Source of the DNA: a virus
Virus record (IMG/VR): IMGVR_UViG_3300010373_000010
Coordinates: 1 to 60,780 of that record
Strand: one strand, 5' to 3'
DNA length: 60,780 nt
Notes under the pieces: model-generated
Told to the model about the DNA's origin: nothing
Database searches by the model: none
Seen by the model: only the letters and a program-made list of their open reading frames with translations
Part shown: piece by piece, positions 11,485-47,200 of the stretch
How positions within the stretch are numbered: the stretch's first letter is position 1
Layout: every line of letters begins with the position of its first letter
Translations under genes and position numbers: made by a program

Positions 11485-14400
11485 ATGCCTGACCTTTCGG
11501 TCCCGCTCCCCGCACCGCTTCCGGGTCCCGGAGCCGCGCCTGACGCGCCCCTTGGCGACATCTCCGCGGCGAAGGCCGACGCGTTGTCGTCGCTCAAGCA
11601 ATCGATGCCCGGCTACACGCCGCTGGCGGATGGCGCGCGTCAGACGCAGGTTACCGGCGGGGGAGGCGGCAGCATGGAGGTCATGCCCAACTCCGCGCCT
11701 GACCCGACTGCCGACCAGATCAAGGGTGCCGGCGCGCAGATCCCGGGCATCCCTGCGGCTCCGCCACCGCCGAAGCAGGCGGTCACGGATGCTGCTCCAG
11801 AAGACAACACTCACTATGGGATGTCGTCGTTCCTGCATTTCATACGAGACGCGACGGTTGGTCCGACGGCGGAAGCACGTCAGCAGTCTGAGCGGGAGAT
11901 CAAGGACGCCGTCCCGCGCGGCGCGCTCCAACTTTGGAAGTTGTTCAACTCGGCCGCAGCCGGCGGTATCTTCCTTGGTGAGAAGGCGTTTGGCTCGAAG
12001 CAACACTACGAAGACGCGCAGTTCAATTACATCAAGAACCACATCCAGCCAGCGATAGACAATTGGACCCCGAAGCGTGGTATGACCGGCGACCAGAACG
12101 CAGCGGCCCCTGTTGCGTCTGCTGTTGGTGGTGCGCTCGAATTTGCACCTAGCATGGTCATGGGCGGCGGCGCTGGTACTGCTCTCTCTACCCTGCAAGC
12201 TATTGCTGGCGGAAATACGTCTGCGCAGGATGACATCGACGCCGACAAGAATGTCACGCAATCGATTGCTGATGGAACGATAGATACTGTCGCCACAATG
12301 CTCATGGCGAAAGGATTCTCCCCGTCCAAGTTCATGCTGCGTCGCGTTATCCGCGGTGCCAAAGTTGGCGCCCTGGTGCAGCTCGGGTCCAACATAGCAA
12401 AGGTGATTGTTGGCCACACTTTTGGAGGTAACAAGAATGCCCCCACAGCACAAGATTTTCTCAAGGACATCCCAGAGTCGGCAATCCTCGGCGGTCTCTT
12501 CGGCGTCAAGCGGCACGCGGCCGAGCATTCGGAAGGAAAAGCCAAACCAGGGAGTGAACGTGTTGAGAGCACTGAGGGAGCGGGCGCCCCTCCGCCGAGT
12601 CCTGCCGCCGTCGCAGCAGCCTCTGCCGACACCGCCAGCTCGGTCAACCCACCCGGCGAGGTCAAACTCCCGGGCGAGCCAGCCGGCGTCATCCCCGGCC
12701 CCAAGTCCGCCGTCCCTGACCAGCCCAGCCCCGAGCCGCTGAAGGACATCAAGGCGCAGTTCAAGGACATGAACGATAAGTCAACTCCTCGGACCGGGGT
12801 GTTGGTTACGCCTGAGACCGGCAAACACCTGGAGAGCCTGGGCGACAAGACGCTTGCGCAGGCGAAGGCGCAGGGGCGTACTGTCGATTTCCCACAAGGG
12901 ACGTTGGTGTTGAAAACCAAGGGTGATGTCATCAAGGTCAAACAGAGGATGAAAGCCGGTGAAGACCCGCAGGCCATCATTGGTTCCGTTACCGGCGCTG
13001 GGTCTGGAAAGTCCCCAGACGCGACCGCCGTGGTGCAGGGCCGGGACGCCACGGGCGCCGTGGCATCTGAGACCACTGTCCACCCAAATGACGTTCCTCT
13101 GGCCGTTGCCAAGATGCAGGACCAGGGCAAGACCCCCGTTGTCACGACGCCAGAAGAGGCCGTGGCTCGTCGGGTAGCAGAGCGTTCCCAAGAAGCAGCG
13201 CAGCCGGCGCCCGCGGAGCCCGTAGCGAAAACCGAGGCTATGCCCGAGCACGAGAGCGACGAGACGCCGGCCGCGCCTGCCCCGCGCATGGGTCTGTTCA
13301 AGCCGGAGAAGGGCGATGAAGTTGCCGTCCATATTGAGGATGGGGCACCCCCCGGAAAGGTCCGCGTTCGCCCCATCGATGCGAGCACTGGCGAAGCGTC
13401 GGATCGCACTATTGACGTCCCGGCGGAGCGAGTGCGACAATCCCAACCCCCGGCCCCTGAGCAAGCTACCGCGACTCTGAATCGCGAGGAAGCCGCCAAG
13501 CCGGTGAGTGAGGTTCCGCCTGAGAAGCTGGCGACTGCTCCTGGAGAGCAGCCAAAAGTGACTGACACTTCCGGGCGGGATTCTCGTGCCCACGAGCACA
13601 GCGTCCGCCGCCGCAAGGTTGTTGCCCGCGCGCACGTCCAGGACAAAGCTGTTGCTGCCGCTCACCACGTAGCGGTTCACTCCGTCGAGGCCGGGCTGGT
13701 CCAAGAACAGAACCAGGACGACGCCTACACCAAGGCGCTCCGTGACGCACTCGCGTTCCACATGGAACAGGAGCAGGTGCAGCCGGGCTATGCGCACGCT
13801 GGCAAGCTGAGTGAGCGACAGGACAATGCTGTTGCATTCGCCAAGGTTCTGCGCACAGCCGCGAAAGCCAAGCAGGGCAAGATGGATGATCGCATCGTCA
13901 ACCGCGCCAACAAGGCTGCGGCTGCGACCATTAAGCAACTCGGCAGGAAGTCGGCTGAGCAGACGCAGGCAGGTCAGGGAACGAGCCACACGCGCGTCGA
14001 TGCGCTCAACGACGAGATGCACCGATCGGCGCGGGAGCTGCTGGGGACAGCCACCGAAGCGGACAAAGAGCCGGCCATGGAGCCCAAGGCGGCTGAACTC
14101 AATCGCCGGATAACTCGGGAGAAAACCGGCGTCGCGGGATCGGCCAGGAAACCGGCCAAAGAGGTCCGCGTCGCCAAGAAGACCGGCATGCCCCCGGCTG
14201 AAAAGCTCCGCACGCAGAAGCTCGTCAACGACTACATCGCGTCGGACTTCGATGAGCACCCGAAGGCGCACCAAGCGCTGCTCCAACATCTTCACGAGCT
14301 GGCCGACAAGTACGATGACTTCCCGCGGGATCAGATCGACCAGTACATGCGGTTCCTTTCTGAGCAGCGCGACGAGCAGCAGGGCGAGCACACCGGCCGC

Positions 14401-17400
14401 ATGTCCGACACGATCGAGCCCGAGAGCCACGAGTTCGAGCAGCCCGAGGAGGGTTTCTCGCGCACGTCTCGACCGCTGATCGACGAGGCACCGGGCGGTA
14501 AAGTCCGCACGAAGATCGCTCGCAATAGGCTCAAGGAGGAGTGGAAGGCGCTGGGCGACGCGCTGCTCAACAACCACTTCTTCGCTCACATGGATAAGTT
14601 CCGCGACACGGGTGAGCCGCTGGGCACGCACTTCCTACTCCAGCATTTCATTGAGCATGCGACGCAGTCTCCGACGGTGAAGGCCATCCTGTCAGCCGTC
14701 CGCGCCCGCGTCCCCGACGCGCCTGTGTACAACCGCAGCGCCCTGGTGAACCCGAAGATCGGGGATACCACCAGGGTGCCATCTGGGGCTGTTGGCATCG
14801 CGAGCTTCGCGCACAACGTACCAAGCGTGCAGATCAACTTCGACTCCAACCGCTGGAAGCCGGCGTTCCTGGCGCGGGCGTTGGTACACGAGGCCATCCA
14901 CACTGGCACCGTCAATGAGCTGGCAGCCAACCCCAACGGTGAGCTGGCGACTCGGATGAAAGCCCTCCACAACATCCTGCTCCGTAGGCTGGAGAAGCAG
15001 TATGGAGCCGAAGCCATCCGTCAGCATATCTCTTACTGGGACGGCGGCGGACCCAAGCCTGCGACCTACAACCGGGCGTTGTACGGCGCGCACAATCCGC
15101 TGGAGATGATGTCGGAGGTTCTGTCGAACCCGGACTTCGTCGATGAGATCAATGCAACAGAAAAGTTCGCGAGCCCAGACGAGAACTTCGATGGCACAAA
15201 GCAGACGCTGTTGACCCGGATCTTCAAAGCTATCGGGCATTTCTTCGGCCATAAGGAAGCACCGCTGCTACAGCACATTCTTGACACGACCTACGATGTC
15301 ATGGATGCGCAGAACGCCCATCGTCCGGATCTTGCTGCCATGCGGCACACTGACATTCACGAGAAGCTGCCGAGCAACACTCGGGCCGCTCTCGGGCTCA
15401 CGCCGATGGAGAACATCGCGCTCGACCATGTAGCGCGGATGCTCGATGAGGACCCCGAGCCGCTTCGCGGAAACGACCGCGAGATGGCGGAGCTGAGCGC
15501 CGGCAGCGGCATGCACACAACGGCCAAGGAGTTTGCCCACACCGTCAAGTCAGGTGTCATCGACGGCCTGCGCAAGTCCATCACCGCGCTCAAGACCGTC
15601 AACCAGATTTACCGGGACCACATTCGGGACTTCGGTCACGACACGTCGTCCAACCCGCTGCGCCGTCTCCAGGATGCTGATTCCAAGAAGGAGACCATCA
15701 TCCATCACTTGCGGGAGATCAGCGATCCTGTCGCTCGCAAATGGGCGCGGCTGTCTCGCGAAGACGATCTCGCTGTGTCGAAGCTCATGATCGACACGAC
15801 CATGTACAAGCTCGATCCGCGGCTGAAGATCGATGAGCAGTCGCTCGTTGCTCGATCGGCCAAGGGCGCCGAGGCGCGGCTTGCCGAGTTCAAGACTCGC
15901 TACGACAAGCTGTCGCCGGAGGCGCGGGAGGTCTACGATGGGGCGACCGACGCGAACCGCAAGCTCGTCCGGGCTCAGCGCCGAGCAGGAGTTGACACTG
16001 CTATCGATGCACTGGAGGCTGATCTTTCACCCGCCCAGCGCGGACTCCTCTACGGTGCCAAGAACCCCGCGGCTTACGATGCCATCATCGGGAAGGGGAA
16101 GCTCATCGATCTCGGCGATGAAGGCAAGAACGAAAAGCTCAAGTCGTCCCTCCGAGACTTCGCCGGCTTCACAGAGCTGGACGGCCCGTACCATCATCTC
16201 GGGCGCCAGGGTGATTTCGTTGTCGCTGCTACACCCGAGGGCACGCGAGAGTTCGATGATCGACCCGCCGCAGAGGAATTTGCCCAGCGAGTTTCCGGCC
16301 TATCGCCGCGTTCTCGCGCGAAGGTGGTCGAACGCGGTGGCAAGTTCGCTGTTGATTACCGCGCCGAGTATGTTTCCATGCATCGGACCCAGCGGGAAGC
16401 TGAGCGCGTCCGTGACCAGATGGAGGCGGCTGGGCTTGAGGTAGGCCACGTCACCCGCAAGACCATGGGTACAGCGTATGGTGCGCTGACCCACGGCATG
16501 CAGGAGTTGGTCACCGAGGCCACGCGCAAGATGACCAAGGGCGTGAAGTCGGACGAGGAGCAGGAAGACGTCAAGGCGCAGGTGAACTCTCTACGATCGG
16601 CGTTCCTACAGATCCAAGCAGCCCGCTCAGCGTTCGCCGGCTCTCGCCTCGCTCGTCGCAACATCGGTGGCGTCAAGCCGCTCGACATGCGGCAGAACTT
16701 CGCTGAGCACGCGCTCTCCGCGGCGTGGCATACGGCCCAGATGTCCACCGTGTTCGATCACGCAGATGCAATGGCGAAGCTGCGCTCGATGGCGCGCGAC
16801 CGGCTCGACGAGAACGCCAGTCAGGCGACCATGTACCGGCGCGGCGAAGCCGTGAAGGCGCTCGCCGACCACACGGTCGATGACGTCAACACCATGGGAC
16901 AGAAGGCTCCCATGAACGCCATGCTCGCGAAGCTCGGGTTCATGGGGTACCTCGCGTCCACGTCTCATGCCGCGATCTGGCTGACACAGAATTTCACGAC
17001 TGCGATCCCGACCGCCGGCCCACGCTGGGGATATGGGAAGTCGCTGGCGGCGTTCGGTCGAGCGATGGCTGCCGTGGCGAGTCCGGTGGTCCGCGCACAC
17101 ATGCAGGAAGTGCTGAGCAAAGGGGGTGACAGTGAATCCGTCCACCAAGCCCTGCTGGCGGCTATCGCCAAGCACCCCACCCTCGGCCACTGGGCTCAGG
17201 GCGATAACTCTCCACTTCGCCAGTTGTTCGATCGCGGCGTCATTTCACACGGCTACGCGGACGAACTCACGAATATGGCGAAGGGGCCGTCGGTGTTGGG
17301 CCGAGCAATTCACGGGTACGACCGAACTATCGATCGCATCTTTAGCTGGGCCAGGGTCCTACCTGCGATGGCGTCGAGTTTTAACCGGCTTAGCACAGCA

Positions 17401-18462
17401 CTGGCGGCCCTGGAGCTGACCGGAGGAGACATCCGCAAGACGTCGGACTTCGTGGATGAAACCCACGCTGACTATTCGCAGGCCAACAAGCCGCTGCTGT
17501 TCAAGAAGTTCGGCCACATCCCCGGTGGCAACTCGATCACGATGTTCAAGACCTACACGCAGGCGATGATCCACCTGCTATACGGCAACTTGAAGGCCAG
17601 CTTCGTGGGAGACAACAAGGCCGAAGCCGCCAAGACATTCGCGGGACTCGTCATCGGCAACGCGCTCTTTGCCGGCGCCGCGTCTGCAATTGGCCTGGAG
17701 CCGCTGCGCCTCGCGCTGTATGCCTACCACAAGATTGCGGACAAAGATGGCGACGTGTGGGACTTCCGAAATGCAGTCAACCGGTTCCTGGTAGAGCACT
17801 TCGGCAAGACGGTAGGCAACGCGCTCGCAACCGGCCCGATCCCTCGTGCGCTCAACATCGACGTCAGCAAGCGCATGGGGCTGTCGGATCTGTTCTTCCA
17901 CGATCCGCCGGATCTGCTCAGTGGCGGCCAGGATGCCTGGAAGAACTTCTTCTGGGATGAACTTGGTCCGATGCCACAGCTCCTCGCCAAGAACGTGTCA
18001 TCGTTCTCGGGCAAGTTCCAGCGCGGCGATCTCGGCGGCGCGTTCGGTTCGATCGTGCCGGTGAAGCAGTGGCAGGACGCGCGACAGGCGCTGGATCTAC
18101 TCCAGGCCGGTGATACCAATTCGTCCGGCGCATCGCTCACCCAGCCGTCGGGCGCCGACGCGGTCACGCGGTTCCTCGGGTTCACGCCGACGGATGTTGG
18201 CGATGAGCGTGAGAAGACGCGGGTGAAGATCGAGTACGCGGACGCCGCGAAAGCAGCCCGCACCGACATCCTCAAGCAGATCACGTCAGCCCGCACAGCC
18301 GGCGAACAGGCTGCGGCCTACGGTCGCATGGATCGTTGGAACCGGAACAACCCGACGATGGCGATTGGCGCTCGTGACATTGAACGTCAATACAAGTACC
18401 GGGCTTACGATCAGGCGGGCGTCGAGCGCAACGCCAAGGCCCAGGCAGCCACGAGCTACTAG
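11485..18462 (+). CDS. Giant internal virion (polyvalent/PLxRFG-like) protein with HExxH motif
   Basis: 2325 aa, by far the largest gene. Hydrophobic stretches near residues 200-320 are followed by a long Pro/Ala/Glu/Lys-rich linker. ARALVHEAIHTGTVNELAANP contains HEAIH (residues 1135-1139), the zinc-metallopeptidase signature. Near residue 1832 WLTQNFTTAIPTAGPRWGYGKSLAAFGRAMA matches the N-x-Q-x-x-x-T-x-P-x-x-G-x-x-G-x-x-K-A segment of giant PLxRFG-type phage proteins; a hydrophobic stretch (AGLVIGNALFAGAASAIG) follows. Such proteins are packaged in the head and injected with the DNA. It ends the late block, its stop overlapping the opposing primase-helicase stop. Protease activity is inferred from the motif only. 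Confidence 0.82.
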   Translation: MPDLSVPLPAPLPGPGAAPDAPLGDISAAKADALSSLKQSMPGYTPLADGARQTQVTGGGGGSMEVMPNSAPDPTADQIKGAGAQIPGIPAAPPPPKQAVTDAAPEDNTHYGMSSFLHFIRDATVGPTAEARQQSEREIKDAVPRGALQLWKLFNSAAAGGIFLGEKAFGSKQHYEDAQFNYIKNHIQPAIDNWTPKRGMTGDQNAAAPVASAVGGALEFAPSMVMGGGAGTALSTLQAIAGGNTSAQDDIDADKNVTQSIADGTIDTVATMLMAKGFSPSKFMLRRVIRGAKVGALVQLGSNIAKVIVGHTFGGNKNAPTAQDFLKDIPESAILGGLFGVKRHAAEHSEGKAKPGSERVESTEGAGAPPPSPAAVAAASADTASSVNPPGEVKLPGEPAGVIPGPKSAVPDQPSPEPLKDIKAQFKDMNDKSTPRTGVLVTPETGKHLESLGDKTLAQAKAQGRTVDFPQGTLVLKTKGDVIKVKQRMKAGEDPQAIIGSVTGAGSGKSPDATAVVQGRDATGAVASETTVHPNDVPLAVAKMQDQGKTPVVTTPEEAVARRVAERSQEAAQPAPAEPVAKTEAMPEHESDETPAAPAPRMGLFKPEKGDEVAVHIEDGAPPGKVRVRPIDASTGEASDRTIDVPAERVRQSQPPAPEQATATLNREEAAKPVSEVPPEKLATAPGEQPKVTDTSGRDSRAHEHSVRRRKVVARAHVQDKAVAAAHHVAVHSVEAGLVQEQNQDDAYTKALRDALAFHMEQEQVQPGYAHAGKLSERQDNAVAFAKVLRTAAKAKQGKMDDRIVNRANKAAAATIKQLGRKSAEQTQAGQGTSHTRVDALNDEMHRSARELLGTATEADKEPAMEPKAAELNRRITREKTGVAGSARKPAKEVRVAKKTGMPPAEKLRTQKLVNDYIASDFDEHPKAHQALLQHLHELADKYDDFPRDQIDQYMRFLSEQRDEQQGEHTGRMSDTIEPESHEFEQPEEGFSRTSRPLIDEAPGGKVRTKIARNRLKEEWKALGDALLNNHFFAHMDKFRDTGEPLGTHFLLQHFIEHATQSPTVKAILSAVRARVPDAPVYNRSALVNPKIGDTTRVPSGAVGIASFAHNVPSVQINFDSNRWKPAFLARALVHEAIHTGTVNELAANPNGELATRMKALHNILLRRLEKQYGAEAIRQHISYWDGGGPKPATYNRALYGAHNPLEMMSEVLSNPDFVDEINATEKFASPDENFDGTKQTLLTRIFKAIGHFFGHKEAPLLQHILDTTYDVMDAQNAHRPDLAAMRHTDIHEKLPSNTRAALGLTPMENIALDHVARMLDEDPEPLRGNDREMAELSAGSGMHTTAKEFAHTVKSGVIDGLRKSITALKTVNQIYRDHIRDFGHDTSSNPLRRLQDADSKKETIIHHLREISDPVARKWARLSREDDLAVSKLMIDTTMYKLDPRLKIDEQSLVARSAKGAEARLAEFKTRYDKLSPEAREVYDGATDANRKLVRAQRRAGVDTAIDALEADLSPAQRGLLYGAKNPAAYDAIIGKGKLIDLGDEGKNEKLKSSLRDFAGFTELDGPYHHLGRQGDFVVAATPEGTREFDDRPAAEEFAQRVSGLSPRSRAKVVERGGKFAVDYRAEYVSMHRTQREAERVRDQMEAAGLEVGHVTRKTMGTAYGALTHGMQELVTEATRKMTKGVKSDEEQEDVKAQVNSLRSAFLQIQAARSAFAGSRLARRNIGGVKPLDMRQNFAEHALSAAWHTAQMSTVFDHADAMAKLRSMARDRLDENASQATMYRRGEAVKALADHTVDDVNTMGQKAPMNAMLAKLGFMGYLASTSHAAIWLTQNFTTAIPTAGPRWGYGKSLAAFGRAMAAVASPVVRAHMQEVLSKGGDSESVHQALLAAIAKHPTLGHWAQGDNSPLRQLFDRGVISHGYADELTNMAKGPSVLGRAIHGYDRTIDRIFSWARVLPAMASSFNRLSTALAALELTGGDIRKTSDFVDETHADYSQANKPLLFKKFGHIPGGNSITMFKTYTQAMIHLLYGNLKASFVGDNKAEAAKTFAGLVIGNALFAGAASAIGLEPLRLALYAYHKIADKDGDVWDFRNAVNRFLVEHFGKTVGNALATGPIPRALNIDVSKRMGLSDLFFHDPPDLLSGGQDAWKNFFWDELGPMPQLLAKNVSSFSGKFQRGDLGGAFGSIVPVKQWQDARQALDLLQAGDTNSSGASLTQPSGADAVTRFLGFTPTDVGDEREKTRVKIEYADAAKAARTDILKQITSARTAGEQAAAYGRMDRWNRNNPTMAIGARDIERQYKYRAYDQAGVERNAKAQAATSY

Positions 18463-27592: not shown

Positions 27593-29161
27593 TTACATTC
27601 TCCAATGCCCGTCGATGATGAAGACGAGCTGTCGTTTTCCATCGGCGTGGACCAACGCATGAGCATTGAGCCACGAGCTGGGACCGCCATTATATTCGAG
27701 TCGAAGATGGGTAGAAGTCCCAACCTGCATAGCGCCCTCATCGATGCCAGGGACGTGCGAATGGCCGATAATCGATCGCGCTCCGATACGGCGAAGATTC
27801 GTAATCGATCCCCGCGCCCCGTTAGGTCCCAGCTCACCATGTTGCCCAAGATCAACTCCGCCAAGCTGATATGGTTCATCCACTCCGAGAACTCGGATGG
27901 CTGGATGGTTAGCTCTGGAGATCCAATAAGCGAACGGGTCAGGGGTCCTGGTTCCAGAATCATCGAGCTGTGTCTCCTGTACCATGTGGAGAGCAGTACG
28001 CAGATAGAACTCTGCGTTCACCGGGTCGTCGCGCCAATCCGTACCGACGATCCATCTTCGCAGAAAATCATTGTGGTTGGATGCGACCACCACGGATTTT
28101 CTGTCGCCCGTCGTATGCGACGTAACGAACCTAACCGCTCGTCGCACTTCAGCTCCAACGTCATCTCGATCTGCTTGCCGCTTGGCAATGCGATTGAAGG
28201 GGTTCTTCCCGTGATGCGGATTGCATGAATACCCGTCGAGGAGATCATGCCATACGAGCGTGTGAGGATTGAGAGCATCGATGATACCGCCGTGTCCGAA
28301 GGTCGCTCTCTCAACTTTCGGATCGATAAAATCCACGTGAGTGTCGCCCATAACAAGCGCGAGGGGCCGGGGAGCTTTGACTCGGCCAGTCGGGGTGTAA
28401 CGATGTTCCAGATCCGTGAACTCGCCTGTCTTTGCGTCTGCACTGACATGCCTCATGTGAAAAATCTTGTCTTCCAACTCTACGATGACAGCCCCGAGCA
28501 TGTGGTGGAACTCACCGATCTTGCCAGCTTTGCTGTCTGTGTAGTTGGGCACAGTAACGGCACCGGTAGTCGTGAGTATCTTCGGGAGCTTGTTGGATGG
28601 CGTCGGTACCACTTTAAGTTGGAGCTTCGTGTGCCCGAGGATCGCAGACTCAGCGCCCGAAATTGCATCGAACCCGGTGAGGGGCGATGAGGCAGTCGGC
28701 ACGGTTTTGATGTCACCAAGCAGGACAAGGTTCGCGTTGAGCTTGCGCCGGCCGTTGTAAAGGTACGGCTGAAGTGCGCCGTCCCATTGCTCTGCGTTCG
28801 CTTGGGAAAGAGTCCAGCGGGAAGTGGGGTTCTTATACCGAATCGGTATGACAAGAAGCTCCGCGCCGAGTGACCTTGAGGCAGCCAGTAACGACTGGAG
28901 GAAAGCCTCATGTACCGGCGTCCCGTTCTGCGCCGCCGTCACGATGTATCGCTTCGTGTGCGGGCTGATCGGGCGATTGAATACCAACTTCTGGTTGGCG
29001 TTCCCGTTGCTGCTCAGCGCCAGCTTCTGCGGGTTGGTCGTGGTGTAGCAGTGGACGCCGTTTTGCTCGCACCGCCAGCGGGTCTTTCCGGCTGGTGACT
29101 TTCCGCGGGCGTGCATCGGACTCTGACACTTGGGACACAGGGGGGCTTTCTTTGTTGGCAT
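27593..29161 (-). CDS. Metallophosphoesterase-like protein with N-terminal zinc finger
   Basis: 522 aa. An N-terminal CPKCQSPMHARGK...WRCEQNGVHC zinc ribbon is followed by a second unit (FNRPISPHTKRYIVTAAQNGTPVHEAFLQSLLAASRSLGAELLVIP). The C-terminal half has calcineurin-like phosphoesterase motifs: ALVMGDTHVDFIDP (GDTH at 272-275), VVVASNHNDFLRRW (GNHD variant) and IIGHSHVPG (GHxH). T5 protein A1, linked to host DNA degradation and DNA transfer, has related phosphoesterase motifs. A nuclease role is therefore plausible but unproven. Confidence 0.75.
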   Translation of the reverse strand: MPTKKAPLCPKCQSPMHARGKSPAGKTRWRCEQNGVHCYTTTNPQKLALSSNGNANQKLVFNRPISPHTKRYIVTAAQNGTPVHEAFLQSLLAASRSLGAELLVIPIRYKNPTSRWTLSQANAEQWDGALQPYLYNGRRKLNANLVLLGDIKTVPTASSPLTGFDAISGAESAILGHTKLQLKVVPTPSNKLPKILTTTGAVTVPNYTDSKAGKIGEFHHMLGAVIVELEDKIFHMRHVSADAKTGEFTDLEHRYTPTGRVKAPRPLALVMGDTHVDFIDPKVERATFGHGGIIDALNPHTLVWHDLLDGYSCNPHHGKNPFNRIAKRQADRDDVGAEVRRAVRFVTSHTTGDRKSVVVASNHNDFLRRWIVGTDWRDDPVNAEFYLRTALHMVQETQLDDSGTRTPDPFAYWISRANHPAIRVLGVDEPYQLGGVDLGQHGELGPNGARGSITNLRRIGARSIIGHSHVPGIDEGAMQVGTSTHLRLEYNGGPSSWLNAHALVHADGKRQLVFIIDGHWRM

Positions 29162-29633
29162 TGGGCTTGAGCCTCATGGTGACCACCGGTGGTGCCGTGT
29201 AGGGGTCGCGTCGGCATGCGATCTCGACCGCCTTCTGTGCGCTGGCACCTGCTTCCATCGCGCCCATGGCCAACTTGGAGCCCGAGCCGATGGCGTAGAA
29301 CGGCTCGTATACTGGCTCCAAAACGCACCACCTGTCAACCTCAAAAAGCCCTTTCGGGCTCACCACGAGGATAGTAAAATCTGGCTCTGAATATGCGAAT
29401 AGCTCCCGGATCTCGGCAAGAGATTTACCGGTGCCCCACGCCTCCACGAACAGCGAGCCCGGCGCGGACTCGCCAGCCGTCGCGAGGATAACGTCTGTAG
29501 GCTGACCGTCTATCTGCACGGTCTTGCGGAACAGCTTCTTGGTATCGAAGTTCCTGGCACCACCGCCCTCTGACTCGACGGTCACCCGTGAGTCAGCGGC
29601 GATGACACCGTTCTTGTACGCGATCGTGGTCAT
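28908..29633 (-). CDS. Proteasome/HslV-like Ntn hydrolase
   Basis: 241 aa. The N-terminus MTTIAYKNGVIAADSRVTVESEGGGARNFDTKKLFRK has the Ntn-hydrolase layout: threonine right after the initiator Met, the G-V-I-A-A-D-S/T-R strand-turn and the catalytic-type Lys in FDTKKLFR. YAIGSGSKLAMGAMEAGASAQKAVEIACRRDPYTAPPVVTMRL matches the later AxGSGxxxAxGAMxxGASAxxAVxxAxxxDxxTGGPV region. Phages carry single proteasome-like subunits whose substrates are unknown. The last 84 residues are basic, unlike the family, and read across 254 bases of the phosphoesterase gene, suggesting a C-terminal extension. Confidence 0.82.
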   Translation of the reverse strand: MTTIAYKNGVIAADSRVTVESEGGGARNFDTKKLFRKTVQIDGQPTDVILATAGESAPGSLFVEAWGTGKSLAEIRELFAYSEPDFTILVVSPKGLFEVDRWCVLEPVYEPFYAIGSGSKLAMGAMEAGASAQKAVEIACRRDPYTAPPVVTMRLKPNANKESPPVSQVSESDARPRKVTSRKDPLAVRAKRRPLLHHDQPAEAGAEQQRERQPEVGIQSPDQPAHEAIHRDGGAERDAGT

Positions 29634-31261: not shown

Positions 31262-31514
31262 GGACGGCCTCCGCGTTGATATTCAGCATGGTACAAATCC
31301 ATTCCAGGGAGCCCGCTTCACGGGACTTACTGTCGATCCAGAGACGAGCGCGCCGTTGAATCCACTGATCTTCAGTGTACAGCTCGCTTGGCCTACCCTC
31401 ATTAGGGATGGGCTCGACCGAGGAAGTAGCATCCTCAACCGCAAGGGCCAGCACAGCGAGCCAGAGCTGGCCATAAACGTCGTACTCGGGAAGGTCATTT
31501 CTATTACTTCGCAT
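31179..31514 (-). CDS. Conserved phage protein of unknown function
   Basis: 111 aa. YDVYGQLWLAVLALAVEDATSS and RRARLWIDSKSREAGSLEWICTMLNINAEAVREEYTRRL follow a pattern common in phage middle genes: W-L-A-V-L-x-x-A-(V/L)-x-D then A-x-x-W-(I/F)-x-S-x-x-x-x-x-G-S-x-x-W-(I/V)-C-x-x-L-x-(I/L)-(N/D)-x-x-x-V-R. It may be a DNA-associated accessory protein. The start overlaps the polymerase stop by 11 bases. Confidence 0.68.
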   Translation of the reverse strand: MRSNRNDLPEYDVYGQLWLAVLALAVEDATSSVEPIPNEGRPSELYTEDQWIQRRARLWIDSKSREAGSLEWICTMLNINAEAVREEYTRRLTRRDNTAGQDRISYEEATG

Positions 31515-33498
31515 CGCCGTATGTCGGACCGTCGTGGATCTCCACTGCGATGGGGAGGTCTGGGAGGAAGTCTACCTTGCGGGTCATCACATTGGCAACA
31601 GCCTTCTTCACCTGCGGAACAATCGTCGTCGGGACCTTGAATACGAGTTCGTCGTGGACCTGGAGAGCCGCAGGGAGCCCATGACGAGCCAGAGTGATCT
31701 CGGCGCGCGTAAGTATGATCCTTGCAAGGGCTTGAGCAATGTTTTCTGTGAATGCTCCTCCCCAGATGTTTTGACCAGCCCCGACCACCACTGTGACTCC
31801 AGCCCGCAGAGCTGTTGCTGCGTCTGGCCCGTCTTCCACATCGGGTGTAAGAATGGTAGCGCCATATCGACTCCTGAATTTAAGACCGTCCCCTGTTCGT
31901 GTCAGAGACGGGTATACGATCGGCATCCCGTTGGGCAGGATGATCCTCTCGTGGGCAAAGATCAGATCAGCAACCGGGCTCGGGAACATCGAGCCGGGCA
32001 CTGTGACATACGTCGCCGCAAGCTGCTCTAGATATCTCCAGAGCTTGGGTATGTTGGGGTAGGTGTCACGGTAAAGCTGGACAATACGCATGGCTTCGCG
32101 CTCGTCCATGATGACGCCTTCCTGCATCATCTTCAGGTGGAACTTCTTCCACCCCATGCCATAGCCAAGTCCCAGGATGCAGGTTTTACCCACGAATCTC
32201 TGGAGTGGGTGATCGTGTTTGTTGACAGCAAAGCCGTAAATCTTCGACGCGAACTCCGAGTATATGTCACGCCCTTCCGCGAATGCGCGGACCAAGTCCC
32301 ACTGGCGGGCCAAGGTGGCGACCAAGCGGGCTTCAATGTTGCTAAGGTCAGCAGCAACAATTGAGTACCCATCATCCGCTGTGACGGCGAATCGGAGATG
32401 ACCTTTTGTAAGGGTGACCTTGTCCTTCGCGTACTCGACACGAGGAAGGTTTTGAAGGTTGATACCGTGGTCACCACTGAATCTCCCGGTGTGCGCGCCA
32501 TAGTAAACAATCGGGACGGGCAGCTTGCCGCCCATGGTCGTACACAGCTCGATCAGCTTCTTCGTGCGCGACTCTTCGATGGTGCTGCTAAAGGCGATCT
32601 TGGATTGAACCAGCACTCGCACCTTCTCACTGGGGTGCGCAAGTAACTGTTTGAATCCGAGATCGTCCTTGGCGAATGCGTATGTCAGCTTGCCCTGCTT
32701 GTTGACCTTCGTCGGTATCAGCTTCTCGTCGCCCAGAGCGGACCCAAGTAGAGCGGCGAACTTGGTCCGCGAACGTATGCACTCAAGAGTTTTCTCTGCG
32801 CCATCTCCGATACCATATGCGCTCGCCAATACTTGAAGTGCGGCCTGTTTCTTACGTTGCAGGTCTTCGAGCCGTCTGGTAAGGGCGTTGTAGTTGAGAT
32901 TGAGGGTAGGCCGAACATACTTCTTGATCGTGAGATCGATGAGGTACTGCTCGTCCAGCGGGAGAATGCGACTAAGCTCTGTGCCAATTGCGGCGGAGTT
33001 TTCAGAGTCGCGGTTACAGTAAAGCCCGTAGTCTCTAAGTTGTTCCGGAGTGAGATCAACACGGTGGACACCTGAGACGTTGTGGACATAATCGCCTTTA
33101 GGTGCGAGACCGAGATACCGGCTGATGTCGTCAAGACCCTGGCCTCCAGCATACGGAACGAAGTGCGGCCGAGACCCGACCATCGTGCAGAGATATGCCG
33201 CAGGTCTGAATCCCAGCCGCCACTCCAGAATGCTCCCCTCGAACCGCGCGTTGTGCGCGACGACACGGACGCGGCTCCAGTCAATCTTTGCCAGCTCGGT
33301 GTGGATCTCGTCGATCGTTCCCGAGATCCACTGAGCGGGCTTGTCGGGCCACTTCAGTGACACCCCAACGATCTCGAACCGCGGGTCCATTACGTACTCC
33401 GCGTTCTCCATCTTCTTGAGGCTGTACTCGCCGTCGTAATACGTCTCGAAGTCAACACCGAGATCGATGCAGACTTGTTCGAGGGGAATGTCTTTCAT
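31504..33498 (-). CDS. polA: DNA polymerase I family (family A)
   Basis: 664 aa. The N-terminal 3'-5' exonuclease domain shows VDFETY (D16, E18), AHNARFEGS (81-89) and YCNRDSENS (D164). The polymerase domain has motif A VAADLSNIEARL (from 381), motif B RFVGKTCILGLGYG (434-447) and motif C VHDEL (614-618). There is no 5'-3' exonuclease domain. In motif B the position equal to E. coli Phe762 is leucine (L442), the class common in environmental phages. With the primase-helicase and helicase it forms the phage replisome. Confidence 0.95.
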   Translation of the reverse strand: MKDIPLEQVCIDLGVDFETYYDGEYSLKKMENAEYVMDPRFEIVGVSLKWPDKPAQWISGTIDEIHTELAKIDWSRVRVVAHNARFEGSILEWRLGFRPAAYLCTMVGSRPHFVPYAGGQGLDDISRYLGLAPKGDYVHNVSGVHRVDLTPEQLRDYGLYCNRDSENSAAIGTELSRILPLDEQYLIDLTIKKYVRPTLNLNYNALTRRLEDLQRKKQAALQVLASAYGIGDGAEKTLECIRSRTKFAALLGSALGDEKLIPTKVNKQGKLTYAFAKDDLGFKQLLAHPSEKVRVLVQSKIAFSSTIEESRTKKLIELCTTMGGKLPVPIVYYGAHTGRFSGDHGINLQNLPRVEYAKDKVTLTKGHLRFAVTADDGYSIVAADLSNIEARLVATLARQWDLVRAFAEGRDIYSEFASKIYGFAVNKHDHPLQRFVGKTCILGLGYGMGWKKFHLKMMQEGVIMDEREAMRIVQLYRDTYPNIPKLWRYLEQLAATYVTVPGSMFPSPVADLIFAHERIILPNGMPIVYPSLTRTGDGLKFRSRYGATILTPDVEDGPDAATALRAGVTVVVGAGQNIWGGAFTENIAQALARIILTRAEITLARHGLPAALQVHDELVFKVPTTIVPQVKKAVANVMTRKVDFLPDLPIAVEIHDGPTYGDAK

Positions 33499-34754: not shown

Positions 34755-35002
34755 AGCGTTGCCTTGAAAAACTCCCAGTCGATGCGGGCAAGCACACCCT
34801 CCGGGTCACCGCACCAGAATGTCACCACAGTTTTGGTCTTCTGCCAGTGCTTCTGAGTGGTCTTGCGGACATTCCAACTCTGAGTGTGGCGGCGGAGGAA
34901 CTTCGTCCTGAAGTTCCGCCAGTTCTTGCCATCGATCTCGCCAGCAAACTCCATTCGATACTCAGCCAGGAAGCCCTCCGTCTTGAGCCGGCTGTACCTC
35001 AC
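34718..35002 (-). CDS. Hypothetical basic protein (94 aa)
   Basis: Start taken as the GTG at 35002, which overlaps the VWA gene stop (GTGA) and follows GGGAGG; the longer frame upstream lies inside the VWA gene. The protein RYSRLKTEGFLAEYRMEFAGEIDGKNWRNFRTKFLRRHTQSWNVRKTTQKHW is Lys/Arg/Trp-rich with predicted beta strands (KTVVTFWCGDPEGVLARIDWEFF). It could be a small nucleic-acid-binding protein; nothing specific was recognised. Confidence 0.5.
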   Translation of the reverse strand: MRYSRLKTEGFLAEYRMEFAGEIDGKNWRNFRTKFLRRHTQSWNVRKTTQKHWQKTKTVVTFWCGDPEGVLARIDWEFFKATLCLFVKNPNSPG

Positions 35003-36204
35003 GCGGCCTCCCGCATGTCGGCTTCCTTGATGTCCACGTGGACGGTCGTTCCCCACGGAGCCTCGATCCCGTCCGTGGTGATGCACCAGACGGTCGGGAT
35101 GCCGTCATCCTCGCCGAACGGGGTGTACCCATCGGTGAAGACGATCCGGTTCTCGATCGGCAGGTCCAGCTCCTTGAACTTCTCGAAGCCTACGGGCAGG
35201 TTCGTGCCACCACCGCCGCCGGCTCGCTGCGCCACGGCCTCTAGCTCGTTCACGTCATCGAACGTGATGACGTCCCCATGGACCTCGTCGTCCACGTAGG
35301 CCAGATGTACCGCCTTGGGCTCGACGTCGGACAGGATGCCCTTGACCTCGCCCATGAACGTGCTCAGCTCGTCCTGGCCAATGGAGCCGCTGGTATCGAC
35401 GATGATGCCGATCTCGGGGCCTTCCCGTCCGCTACGGCCGGGCCAGTACGCGTGCGGCGGGGCTGCCAGCTTGCGCCGGTTCGGCCGCGCCCAGGTCATC
35501 TCATCGCGCCCCCGGGTCTGGTTGATGATGGTCTTGCGTAGATGCTCCTGCCACGGGACCTCGGGCTCGCATATCTGGTCGATCAGGCGCTCCAGTCCGC
35601 CGGCTCCCTTGCCCTGCATCTTGGCGATCTCCTGCGCCTTCTTCAGCGCAGCGGCCATGACGGGCTGAGAGGTAGGAGACTGGCCATCGTCGCCAATGTG
35701 CTGGTCTGGACCATCCGGCTTGTCTTCCTCGTCGTCTGGGAGCTTGAGATAAACCTCGTCCACAATGTCGTCGCCGGTGACCTGGGAGTTTTGTAGGCTG
35801 CCAAGTGGGAGTTTGTAGCCCTGAGAAGTGAGATGCGCGTTGATGATGTAGTCACAGGCGTGATCGAACCGCTTCGTGCTGAAGGTCTTGAGATCAGGAC
35901 CGACCCCGAGCTGGAGATAGTTGTGCTTGCGGGCCGCATGTTGAAGAATGACATGCATGATCTCATGAGCGAGCATCCCACGGCGCTCCCCGATCGAGAG
36001 CTTGCCGAACTTCTCCGGGTTGATCCAGAGGATCTTCCCGTTGGTCGCGCAGGTCTCTAACTGGGAGCCATCCGGGAGCTGATTGCTCTCGACGACCTCC
36101 ATCAGATCGAGTAGAAGCGACGCGAAGAACGGGTCCTGCACCAGCAGCGCGCTAATGCCTTCGGTGACGCACGCGCTACGCTGCGCGCTGTTGTGTGCCG
36201 ACAT
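34999..36204 (-). CDS. VWA-like protein with DUF2201 metallopeptidase domain
   Basis: 401 aa. The N-terminal domain has GERRGMLAHEIMHVILQHAAR with the zinc motif HEIMH (80-84) and FDHACDYIINAHL, a probable third-ligand helix. After an acidic linker (LPDDEEDKPDGPDQHIGDD) the C-terminal VWA-like domain shows the MIDAS motif DTSGS (270-274), AYVDDEVHGDVI and GGGGGTNLPVGF plus VFTDGYTPFG. DUF2201-type VWA proteins pair with MoxR AAA+ ATPases, and such an ATPase lies two genes upstream (37491-38585). Possibly a chaperone or remodelling system acting on a phage or host protein; the target is unknown. Confidence 0.88.
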   Translation of the reverse strand: MSAHNSAQRSACVTEGISALLVQDPFFASLLLDLMEVVESNQLPDGSQLETCATNGKILWINPEKFGKLSIGERRGMLAHEIMHVILQHAARKHNYLQLGVGPDLKTFSTKRFDHACDYIINAHLTSQGYKLPLGSLQNSQVTGDDIVDEVYLKLPDDEEDKPDGPDQHIGDDGQSPTSQPVMAAALKKAQEIAKMQGKGAGGLERLIDQICEPEVPWQEHLRKTIINQTRGRDEMTWARPNRRKLAAPPHAYWPGRSGREGPEIGIIVDTSGSIGQDELSTFMGEVKGILSDVEPKAVHLAYVDDEVHGDVITFDDVNELEAVAQRAGGGGGTNLPVGFEKFKELDLPIENRIVFTDGYTPFGEDDGIPTVWCITTDGIEAPWGTTVHVDIKEADMREAA

Positions 36205-36490
36205 GTGTTAGCTCTCCTACAGTTCGAGCAAGCCGCTTCGAGCGGATGTTGCCCTCGTTGACCCACTGGAACCGCCAGCCCGGGAAGACGCACAGCTTGT
36301 AACTCTTACCGTGCTCTATCTTACTCTGTCTGGTAATTTCTACCGTGACGCCCCTCACAGTATGGATGTAGTTCTCCTCACGATTCAAGGGGCCATAGCT
36401 GGCCACTAGCGCGAGGATGTCGCCATCCACCTGGGACACGGGGCGAGTCGAGAGCGCCGCGAACTGGTGTTTGGTTACAGTACCTTCCAT
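36176..36490 (-). CDS. Hypothetical protein (104 aa) in the MoxR-VWA cluster
   Basis: Overlaps the DUF3150-like gene by 16 bases and the VWA gene by 29. Sequence is mostly beta (GDILALVASYGPLNREENYIHTVRGVTVEITRQSKIEHGKSYKLCVFPGWRFQWVNEGNIRSKRLARTV). No family was recognised. Its place inside a conserved gene trio suggests a small accessory subunit, purely by context. Confidence 0.55.
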   Translation of the reverse strand: MEGTVTKHQFAALSTRPVSQVDGDILALVASYGPLNREENYIHTVRGVTVEITRQSKIEHGKSYKLCVFPGWRFQWVNEGNIRSKRLARTVGELTHVGTQQRAA

Positions 36491-37395
36491 ATATCTTCCA
36501 CCGCGGCAGCGACCGCGATCTCGTTGGCGCGGGATGCGATCTCCGCGGCCTTCTTGTTGTCGTTCCGATAGACCTCGACGGGCTGGTGCAGGAGTTCCTT
36601 CTCGATGCGATCGGCCAGCTCGCTGATCTCCGGCTTGCCGGCCACGTTCATGGTACGAGTCAGCCCGACCAGCGCCTGGAGGTTGGTCACGAGCGAGTCG
36701 TAGAGCCGGGTCTTCTCACCAGCACCGGCCTTTCCGAGCTGCGTGGCCATGCGATTGATGCACGTCAGCAGCCGTTCCTTCAGCTCACCCATTGCGACTT
36801 CCACGTGGACCTGGGCAGCTTGCGCATGGCGCTGGCCCAATGCCTCTGCGAGTGCCGCAGGCACATTAACTCGGGTGAAGTCCGTTTGAGAGGGAACCGG
36901 TAGCAAGCCGACAGTAACTCCGAACAGTCCGACCACGGCAGCCGCATCAGGGTAGTCGTCGGTCTTAGCGAGGGTACCCAGGCTGGATAGGGCCTGTTGT
37001 TTTCGTGCGTCCCAGACGGCGGCCAATGCGGCAACGGCATTGTCGTACTCCTGCTTGATCTGGTTTAGTTCCCGCAGGAACTCAATCGACCGAGTGGCCG
37101 GGAGCAGCCGCGGGCCGCGCTTCACGCCCTCGACGTTACCTGACCATGGCAGCGTGTTCGAATATACGAACTCCCTGATCGCCTGCGCGAGCTTGTTGAC
37201 TGCGGTGAGTTCCGCATCCGCGCCAGCGAACAGGTACTTGATGAACTTGCCGGCGTTCCCTGCCGCTTGGTGAGAGTTGATGACCTCGTTGGTCGCGTCC
37301 TTGTCGGTACGCTTCGCGGACCACGAGCGAATTTCGAGATCCACCAGCAGATAGTTTGCTGACAGGGCCTCGTTCAGTTGAGCAGCATCGGTCAT
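36475..37395 (-). CDS. DUF3150-like protein, partner of MoxR and VWA
   Basis: 306 aa from the ATG at 37395 (GGAGATC upstream); the 48-codon extension to 37539 is rejected because it crosses a structured intergenic element. ALSANYLLVDLEIRSWSAKRTDKDATNEVINSHQAAGNAGKFIKYLFAGADAELTAVNKLAQAIREFVYSNTLPWS, DYPDAAAVVGLFGVTVGLLPVP, and a long C-terminal helical bundle ending ISELADRIEKELLHQPVEVYRNDNKKAAEIA match the pattern (L-x-I-x-x-W-S/T-x-x-K, N-x-L-P-W) of phage DUF3150-like proteins that co-occur with MoxR ATPases and VWA proteins. Function unknown. Confidence 0.72.
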   Translation of the reverse strand: MTDAAQLNEALSANYLLVDLEIRSWSAKRTDKDATNEVINSHQAAGNAGKFIKYLFAGADAELTAVNKLAQAIREFVYSNTLPWSGNVEGVKRGPRLLPATRSIEFLRELNQIKQEYDNAVAALAAVWDARKQQALSSLGTLAKTDDYPDAAAVVGLFGVTVGLLPVPSQTDFTRVNVPAALAEALGQRHAQAAQVHVEVAMGELKERLLTCINRMATQLGKAGAGEKTRLYDSLVTNLQALVGLTRTMNVAGKPEISELADRIEKELLHQPVEVYRNDNKKAAEIASRANEIAVAAAVEDIWKVL

Positions 37396-37410
37396 GTTGA
37401 TCTCCGCTAA

Positions 37411-37477
37411 ACCCCCGGGTCCTACACCACGTTGCGCATCGGGGGAGACACAGCGCGTGGCATCAGAACCCGGGGGC
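37411..37477 (-). promoter_or_regulatory. Long inverted repeat between moxR-like and DUF3150-like genes
   Basis: CCCCCGGGT (37412-37420) pairs with ACCCGGGGG (37468-37476); inside, CCAC (37427-37430) pairs with GTGG (37457-37460) and GCGC (37434-37437) with GCGC (37453-37456), giving a branched, GC-rich stem-loop. It fills most of the 95-base gap between the ATPase stop and the next start, in the same transcript. No poly-T follows on the coding strand, so a processing or differential-expression element is as likely as a terminator. Confidence 0.6.
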
Positions 37478-37490
37478 CAGCCTTCGGTTA

Positions 37491-38585
37491 CTACTTCCCG
37501 GTAGAGGAAGTAATCAATGCCTTGTTGGAGTGAATCCACTTCACCAACGAAGGGCTATTCAGCAGCACGCTGCCGCTGCGCTCCAGCAGCGACTTGGCCA
37601 TTGACACCTGGACCTCCTTCGGAAGCCGCTCGGTATACTGCCAGAGCTTGTCGATGTTGCCCGGCTTGGCGTAGTGGATGCACATCTGGCCGGCGGCCCA
37701 CCCCGCGGACATGTCGGTCGGGCACTTTGCCTTCTTGGGGTCTGCCTCGATCTCTTCCAGCGTGGGCAGCTTGTCATAGACCTTCAAGAAGCCGAACAGA
37801 TCCGCGGTCGCACCTTCGCCGATGTCGCCCATCACGGCCAGCATGCTCAGCTCGTCCATGGGCAGCTCCAGATCCACCAGCATGCCGTCGGCATCGCGCT
37901 CTTTGCCCACCTGCAAGAAGTTGGCTGCGCGGGCCAGGGACCGGGCGGTGCTGAACGGCTTGTCCGTGGATGGAACCTCGTTCACGAACGCGACGGTCGG
38001 ATGCGACTTCGCCCAGGCAATGATGAGCGGATGCACACCATGCCTCTCCGCCCAGACGGCCCAGCTCAGCGCGTCGTTTTCGAGCGGAATTTCGCGAACA
38101 CGATTGCGGACGTGAGACGGCTGACGAACAACACCAGCCCGATCCGACATGCGATTGGACGCAGCCCAAACCTGCCACCCGGGCGGTAGAGTCTCATTAC
38201 CAAACCGTTTGGATAGCAGAACCGGGGCGAGAGCCTTCTGTGTAAGCATCTCGGCAGACGACAGCTCGTCAACCAAGTAAATCCCGCGGGGGTGCTGTGC
38301 CAGATATTCACGGCTGGGCAACTCCGGTGACCGAGTGAACGCTGAGCCTGCGGTGCCGTCCGGATTCTTGATCGGCAGCAGGAAGCCCTTGTAATCCGGC
38401 GCGTCGAGCGTCGGCGCGAGCGAGTCGTGGAAGCCGAACTTCTCGCCGTAGGCATCGGACAGAATCGAGACGATCTCGTTCTGAATCACCTGCGACTTGC
38501 CACAGCCCGGCGGTCCGATGAGATGGATGGTATCGCCGCTCTCATAGAGCGGGCGGGCCAGCTTCGTCAGATCCAGAATACGCAT
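37491..38585 (-). CDS. MoxR-family AAA+ ATPase
   Basis: 364 aa. Walker A GPPGCGKS (24-31), Walker B GIYLVDELSS (102-110) and AASNRMSDRAGVVRQPSHVRNRVREIPL (sensor 1 and arginine region) are present, followed by a helical lid (LIIAWAKSHPTVAFVNEVPS; ARSLARAANFL). MoxR ATPases work with VWA proteins in chaperone-like or cofactor-insertion roles; here a VWA metallopeptidase is encoded two genes downstream. It overlaps the upstream gene by 44 bases. Confidence 0.88.
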   Translation of the reverse strand: MRILDLTKLARPLYESGDTIHLIGPPGCGKSQVIQNEIVSILSDAYGEKFGFHDSLAPTLDAPDYKGFLLPIKNPDGTAGSAFTRSPELPSREYLAQHPRGIYLVDELSSAEMLTQKALAPVLLSKRFGNETLPPGWQVWAASNRMSDRAGVVRQPSHVRNRVREIPLENDALSWAVWAERHGVHPLIIAWAKSHPTVAFVNEVPSTDKPFSTARSLARAANFLQVGKERDADGMLVDLELPMDELSMLAVMGDIGEGATADLFGFLKVYDKLPTLEEIEADPKKAKCPTDMSAGWAAGQMCIHYAKPGNIDKLWQYTERLPKEVQVSMAKSLLERSGSVLLNSPSLVKWIHSNKALITSSTGK

Positions 38586-47124: not shown

Positions 47125-47200
47125 AGACGGGTAGCTCAGTGGGAGAGCGTTGGCCATGCAGGCCGAAGGTCGCCGGTTCGAGTCCAGGCTCCGTCCGCCA
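47125..47200 (+). tRNA. tRNA-like gene, anticodon probably UGC (Ala) but atypical
   Basis: A cloverleaf can be drawn: acceptor AGACGGG/TCCGTCC (first pair A-C), D-arm GCTC-AGTGGGA-GAGC, anticodon stem TTGGC/GCCGA with loop CATGCAG (47155-47161), variable AGGTC, T-arm GCCGG-TTCGAGT-CC(A)GGC with a bulged A, and an encoded CCA (47198-47200). In this fold the anticodon is TGC, but position 33 is A instead of the near-universal T. It may be a degenerate tRNA-Ala or a tRNA mimic. The encoded CCA and conserved D- and T-loop bases support a tRNA origin. Confidence 0.7.

Follow-up and report, generated by a model that had tools for sequence, protein, structure and literature searches.

A MoxR-type ATPase, a DUF3150-like protein and a zincin-VWA fusion are conserved as a three-gene unit in uncultivated phages and on bacterial plasmids

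What does a virus gain from a MoxR-type AAA+ ATPase, a DUF3150-like protein and a fusion of a zincin metallopeptidase-like domain with a VWA domain, all encoded in one block directly upstream of its DNA polymerase? The question is raised by record IMGVR_UViG_3300010373_000010, a podovirus-like virus record of 60,780 bp (the window; Table 1). On its plus strand the window encodes virion proteins, among them an SU10-like portal, the large terminase and the major head protein. The three genes (the trio) belong to the minus strand, which also encodes a primase, exonucleases, an SNF2 helicase and a family-A DNA polymerase. The three proteins are inherited jointly across viral contigs, bacterial genome contigs and plasmids, and we consider, with moderate confidence, that they represent one ATP-driven protein-remodelling protease expressed early to middle.

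The ATPase carries the Walker A motif GPPGCGKS at residues 24–31 and the Walker B acids D106-E107. On its own it stays below every Pfam cut-off (AAA_5, E 0.046, 14.2 bits against a gathering score of 22), and we assign it to the MoxR clade not on the Pfam score but because it matches phrog_1297 (7.6e-56 in PHROGs) and because the profile of its family, compared with solved structures, finds the AAA domains of midasin first (4.8e-32), followed by CbbQ, NorQ and RavA. K30, N144 and R215 are invariant in 187 homologues, with R162 kept in 186 and D106 in 184 of them. Walker A, Walker B, the sensor-1 asparagine and the arginine residues expected of the clade are present, and in nearly all loci the block also includes a gene for a VWA protein. 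In 46 of the 187 ATPases, among them the copies compared from Burkholderiaceae and Simplicispira plasmids, the second Walker B position holds aspartate and not glutamate, a change that suggests altered hydrolysis.

The zincin-VWA protein is recognised by Pfam directly (DUF2201_N, 2.5e-38, 132.7 bits against a gathering score of 23.2; DUF2201, 2.6e-18, 66.8 against 26.4), belongs to phrog_1314 (3.7e-71 in PHROGs) and matches the VWA fold with Z 12–13. Its two motifs are intact, HEIMH at 80–84 within HExxHxxxxH and, at 270–274, DTSGS of the metal-ion-dependent adhesion site (MIDAS). Both sites are almost invariant among 206 homologues: H80 is kept in 200, E81 in 201 and H84, H89 and D118 in 202 each, while in the MIDAS D270, S272, S274 and T334 are kept in 205 each and D358 in 204. 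Many members have an acidic linker of variable length between the zincin and VWA domains, and a comparable linker exists in ChlD, CobT and midasin. All the motifs listed in the initial annotation of this DNA are thus present, and its assignment of the two proteins to the MoxR and VWA families is borne out. PHROGs names phrog_1314 ‘HNH endonuclease’, and the name, which has no basis in the window sequence, has spread to many GenBank and RefSeq phage records; in phage G7C a true HNH gene sits between gp24 and gp25 and is a possible source of the misnaming.

The middle protein was the most difficult to place. Taken alone, it gave no match to Pfam DUF3150 (PF11348) at E<1, no informative match in Pfam, PHROGs, NCBIfam or PADLOC, and no tblastn match at E<=10 among 50,697 phage records, and a single-protein scan of viral contigs identified none with a DUF3150-like protein. 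These negatives reflect the sensitivity limits of single sequences and were overcome by searching with alignments. Relatives were reached via the neighbourhood, on plasmids matching both the ATPase and the VWA protein, where unnamed middle genes of ~300 amino acids (aa) align with the DUF3150-like protein over its full length at 25–31% (tblastn E down to 2e-21, others weaker). Phage G gp569 and Simplicispira 4447-5337 were rejected as middle-gene candidates on account of poor alignment and other domains. The plasmid-based family alignment was then used to find viral and bacterial contigs, with alignments A2 (genome contigs) and A4 set aside for scanning as too diverse; E-values of these contig scans are relative to the candidates, and the IMG/VR contigs are uncultivated and partly fragmentary. 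Pfam DUF3150 is matched by 67 of the 96 family members (best 1.2e-8). The structure predicted with AlphaFold2 (predicted local distance difference test, pLDDT, 93.5) finds in BFVD the viral ‘DUF3150 domain-containing protein’ A0A6J7WV52 at TM-scores of 0.80/0.83 (E 1e-15). The label ‘DUF3150-like’ given in the initial annotation is therefore correct, the protein being a distant relative of DUF3150. Solved structures contain no convincing relative of the model, as its PDB matches (vinculin heads and designed bundles, Z <=8.9) score no better than helical bundles in general and were not used.

How tightly are the three genes associated? Carriers of the DUF3150-like protein amount to ~80 distinct viral contigs and 22 genome contigs in addition to plasmids, and both partners are nearly always on the same strand. 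All fetched loci were scanned with a profile for each of the three families. Where the DUF3150-like gene had served as the anchor and was flanked by at least 4 kb to either side, both partners were present on one strand in 53/53 viral and 17/18 genome cases, six viral contigs being counted twice. The gene order is ATPase-DUF3150-VWA, DUF3150-ATPase-VWA or, rarely, ATPase-VWA-DUF3150, and this variation means that the association is not a single ancestral arrangement kept unchanged. Across 114 non-redundant trios (VWA identity <80%) the three proteins have correlated pairwise distances (r 0.86–0.90), which shows their joint inheritance. Neighbourhood analysis was one of the checks proposed with the initial annotation, an absence of co-occurrence being named as an outcome that would speak against a module; co-occurrence is strong.

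The association with replication genes can be judged from an anchor that is independent of the trio. Among the best 80 matches to the polymerase type of the window, all 28 contigs with at least 7 kb of upstream sequence carry the full trio upstream of the polymerase gene on the same strand. Clustered by polymerase identity, they form 26 groups at 90%, 15 at 70% and 3 at 50%, and the trio is thus core, not cargo, in this polymerase lineage. The two-gene form, ATPase and VWA protein, likewise lies upstream of helicase and polymerase in Schitoviridae and upstream of the DNA polymerase in Rhizobium phages. The ATPase, the ~300-aa DUF3150-like protein and the zincin-VWA protein are also encoded in that order outside phages, on plasmids of Burkholderia, Paraburkholderia, Rhodovastum and Simplicispira. 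Several of these plasmids are conjugative, and plasmid copies of the trio lie near conjugation genes.

Is the DUF3150-like protein then indispensable to the pair? Of 80 loci anchored on the VWA gene, 73 contain an ATPase gene and 43 a DUF3150-like gene, and we therefore regard the ATPase/VWA pair as the core and the DUF3150-like subunit as lineage-specific, yet near-obligate where present. In 23 of the 37 VWA loci that lack DUF3150, a family of ~220 aa (C225, weakly phrog_1965) is found, mostly between ATPase and VWA (for instance L139:2490-3146 and L145:7088-7765, within loci L128-L194). We considered C225 as a reduced DUF3150 and rejected this, as the hhalign probability is 0.6%. Since its profile is unrelated and it also occurs downstream of the VWA gene in 14 other loci that do have DUF3150, C225 is not simply a substitute.

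How would such a unit work? Judging from its family and its invariant residues, the MoxR ATPase would form an AAA+ ring and deliver ATP-driven force. As in midasin, RavA-ViaA and CbbQO, the VWA domain would dock on this ring, and its Mg-loaded MIDAS would engage an acidic residue in a substrate or in a partner protein. The fused zincin domain would cut the protein presented to it, as the near-invariance of HExxHxxxxH and D118 suggests. The DUF3150-like protein would be the third subunit, most likely an adaptor or scaffold that chooses what is presented, a role that we propose because of its near-obligate co-occurrence and its unrelated fold. Recognition may thus occur via the MIDAS, the DUF3150-like subunit or both, to be followed by remodelling and cutting. 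A replication or host complex is a more likely target than a part of the virion, given that the trio is embedded among replication genes, upstream of the polymerase, and also occurs on conjugative plasmids, which make no virion. The initial annotation had suggested a complete ATP-driven remodelling or proteolysis module acting on a host complex or a virion protein; residue conservation is what speaks for such a module, and the virion part of that suggestion has become less likely. We infer proteolysis by the zincin-VWA protein from its conserved residues, and the kind of target from gene location and from the plasmids. Taken further, the trio may tentatively be seen as a dedicated ATP-dependent machine of three subunits for remodelling and proteolysis. 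It would be core to genome replication or host takeover in a large phage lineage that is mostly uncultivated, conjugative plasmids would carry it as a module, and DUF3150 would act as a substrate adaptor of a new type, one with no known solved relative.

Several points weigh against an ATP-driven remodelling protease. It presupposes contact among the three proteins and an active zincin, and many N4-type phages manage without a DUF3150-like protein. Common ancestry inflates Mantel correlations, and the polymerase correlates just as well, at about 0.9; synteny with the polymerase may reflect the timing of expression and not a replication target. In lambda-type contigs (gpA terminase, portal), moreover, the trio neighbours the terminase and portal genes, although it is encoded on the other strand. 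Finally, MoxR-VWA pairs often remodel without proteolysis.

The last point leads to the rival that survives best, although we regard it as somewhat unlikely, namely a pure remodelling chaperone in which the zincin would hold a structural metal and cut no substrate. RavA-ViaA, CbbQO and NorQD all remodel in this way. However, E81 is the general base in zincins and not a metal ligand, so that its retention in nearly all homologues would be hard to attribute to a structural metal and favours cleavage.

The strongest rival in terms of function, since phages and plasmids share the trio, is a conflict system of mobile elements of the MoxR-vWA-peptidase ternary type (Kaur et al., 2020), with DUF3150 as the sensor and a role in anti-defence, superinfection exclusion or competition between elements. 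The three-part logic of MoxR, vWA fused to a peptidase and a third component does match such systems (PMC7159879, PMC12839542), the trio is common to plasmids and unrelated phages, and the position of plasmid copies near conjugation genes would also fit. Yet in the polymerase lineage the trio is core and syntenic in all of the 28 contigs described above and not patchy cargo, none of the three proteins has a significant match in PADLOC, and no VMAP or iSTAND component was recognised, though DUF3150, for which no solved relative was found, may be remotely related to such components. We consider a conflict system unlikely.

A chaperone or protease for virion assembly, in which the MoxR-vWA pair would assemble and process structural proteins, appears more doubtful still. 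It has been proposed for the same architecture in jumbo phages, with Acidianus two-tailed virus as the analogy (PMC7824862), and the lambda-type phages, with the trio next to terminase and portal, would agree with it. In the first eight trio contigs neither a phrog_2 terminase nor VirB4 was found, gpA terminase and a lambda-type portal being present. Against virion assembly stand the plasmids, as well as the orientation of the genes: the trio is co-oriented with replication genes both in the window and in all 28 contigs from the best 80 polymerase matches, the structural genes of the window are on the other strand, and even in lambda-type phages the trio runs opposite to the terminase.

A metabolic role as a CobS/CobT-like cobaltochelatase pair that raises the cobalamin supply of the host, as similar AAA/VWA pairs of archaeal viruses, cyanophages and a Schitovirus have been read (PMC8651126, PMC11705849), is highly improbable, since no trio protein matches a CobS or CobT model, CobN and CobT_C were found in 0 of 12 trio-bearing records in which positive controls were detected, and a chelatase would have no use for an almost invariant zincin site or for DUF3150 as a partner.

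Within the window, the four open reading frames (ORFs) of the cluster are where the initial annotation had placed them, overlapping except at one structured gap. The VWA and 104-aa genes overlap by 29 nt, the 104-aa and DUF3150-like genes by 16 nt and the ATPase and a 197-aa gene by 44 nt, and the only gap in the cluster separates the ATPase gene from the DUF3150-like gene. This gap folds at -49.4 kcal/mol (z -3.5, 0/200 shuffles), and the hairpin ends directly before the GGAG and ATG from which the DUF3150-like ORF is read; it lacks the U-run typical of a terminator, and an Rfam search over 33–42 kb of the window, hairpin included, gave no match.

Table 1. Features of the trio block and its syntenic anchor in the window.
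Feature	Length	Positions	Strand	Evidence
MoxR-type AAA+ ATPase, N4 gp24 / phrog_1297 family	364 aa	37491-38585	-	PHROG match, family profile, residues
Intergenic RNA hairpin	95 nt	37396-37490	-	Folding versus shuffles
DUF3150-like protein (putative third subunit)	306 aa	36475-37395	-	tblastn, family Pfam matches, predicted structure
ORF between DUF3150-like and VWA genes, orphan	104 aa	36176-36490	-	Without Pfam or PHROG match
Zincin-VWA fusion (DUF2201_N and VWA/MIDAS), N4 gp25 / phrog_1314	401 aa	34999-36204	-	Pfam, residues, VWA fold
Family-A DNA polymerase, encoded downstream (anchor for synteny, no subunit of the trio)		31504-33498	-	Pfam DNA_pol_A 8.4e-32

The 104-aa ORF has no relative among the ORFs of all fetched loci and is probably not a core subunit. 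The 197-, 181-, 258- and 105-aa neighbours were rejected as parts of the module together with it, for the same lack of relatives in the fetched loci, so that the flanking 104-aa and 197-aa genes, to which the initial annotation had drawn attention, do not belong to what is conserved. The minus-strand block of the trio also holds a gene for an HslV-family peptidase (phrog_1040, 1.6e-36; 28908-29633), and a gene of phrog_1040 is found near the trio in 10 other loci, L137, L147 and L155 among them. Also in this podovirus-like genome, a 522-aa protein (27593-29161, minus strand) matches a ‘DNA transfer protein’ family very strongly (phrog_1745, 1.6e-143). On the plus strand, a 2325-aa ORF (11485-18462), with only a partial match to a PHROG of unknown function, closes the block of virion genes, and a single tRNA-Ala (TGC) gene (47126-47196) lies in a non-structural region.

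How does the trio compare with known systems? As a whole the cluster cannot be called undescribed, as the pair corresponds to gp24/gp25 of N4 and a pair of MoxR and metallopeptidase-vWA was named in jumbo phages in 2021 (Iyer et al., 2021, PMC7824862). For the three-gene unit no description was found in the literature searched, where DUF3150 was not mentioned either. N4 gp24/gp25 of Schitoviridae represent both families, in the order ATPase then VWA and upstream of helicase and DNA polymerase; in contrast to the window, no DUF3150-like protein was found between or near the N4-type pair, and identity is only ~25–30%. These two families are widespread in phages, and the literature searched yielded neither a function nor an assay for the pair, the main text of the CRISPRi-ART paper containing none of the terms MoxR, gp24, N4-like, phage N4 and Schitoviridae. 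The group 2.2 jumbo-phage pair has the same two-part architecture, with a chaperone and peptidase role proposed, but belongs to another phage lineage, was linked to virion assembly and comes with no mention of a third subunit in the available text (PMC7824862). The nearest GenBank relatives by ATPase (33%), Rhizobium phages RHph_TM27A, TM3_14A and their kin (60.9 kb), share the order ATPase, small genes, metallopeptidase-VWA, a 257-aa gene and DNA polymerase, but have three small ORFs in place of the DUF3150-like gene.

All three families do occur together elsewhere. The trios of Burkholderiaceae and Rhodovastum, in the order ATPase, DUF3150-like and VWA, differ from that of the window in being plasmid-borne, several on conjugative plasmids, and by the second Walker B aspartate of the Burkholderiaceae and Simplicispira copies compared. 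In Synechococcus phage MinM2 (65,014 bp, with two Planktothrix records equally long) a ‘MoxR family ATPase’, a ‘DUF3150 domain-containing protein’ and a ‘VWA-like domain-containing protein’ are annotated in that order; this cyanophage has another replication block, and the genes are not described there as a module. Only three of the 50,697 GenBank phage records, all of 65,014 bp, match the DUF3150-like queries tried with tblastn, which may miss divergent ones, and such scarcity would explain why the trio with DUF3150 has gone unnoticed. These records (OQ594354, OL906435 and PP438419, from Synechococcus, Planktothrix and Planktothricoides) have equal match values as well as equal length and possibly represent one phage or a contaminant.

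The two-gene form is therefore already known, from N4 gp24/gp25 and from jumbo phages, and the annotators of MinM2 had named the three genes, whereas the third subunit, the constant place beside the DNA polymerase in uncultured phages and the presence on bacterial plasmids seem to be new. The DUF3150 family gains a gene context, a confident predicted fold and named partners, and the proposals of virion assembly and cobalamin synthesis become testable and less likely as general roles. Together, the third subunit, the location at the polymerase and the conjugative plasmids narrow the question raised by the N4 and jumbo-phage pairs to something that both phages and plasmids need.

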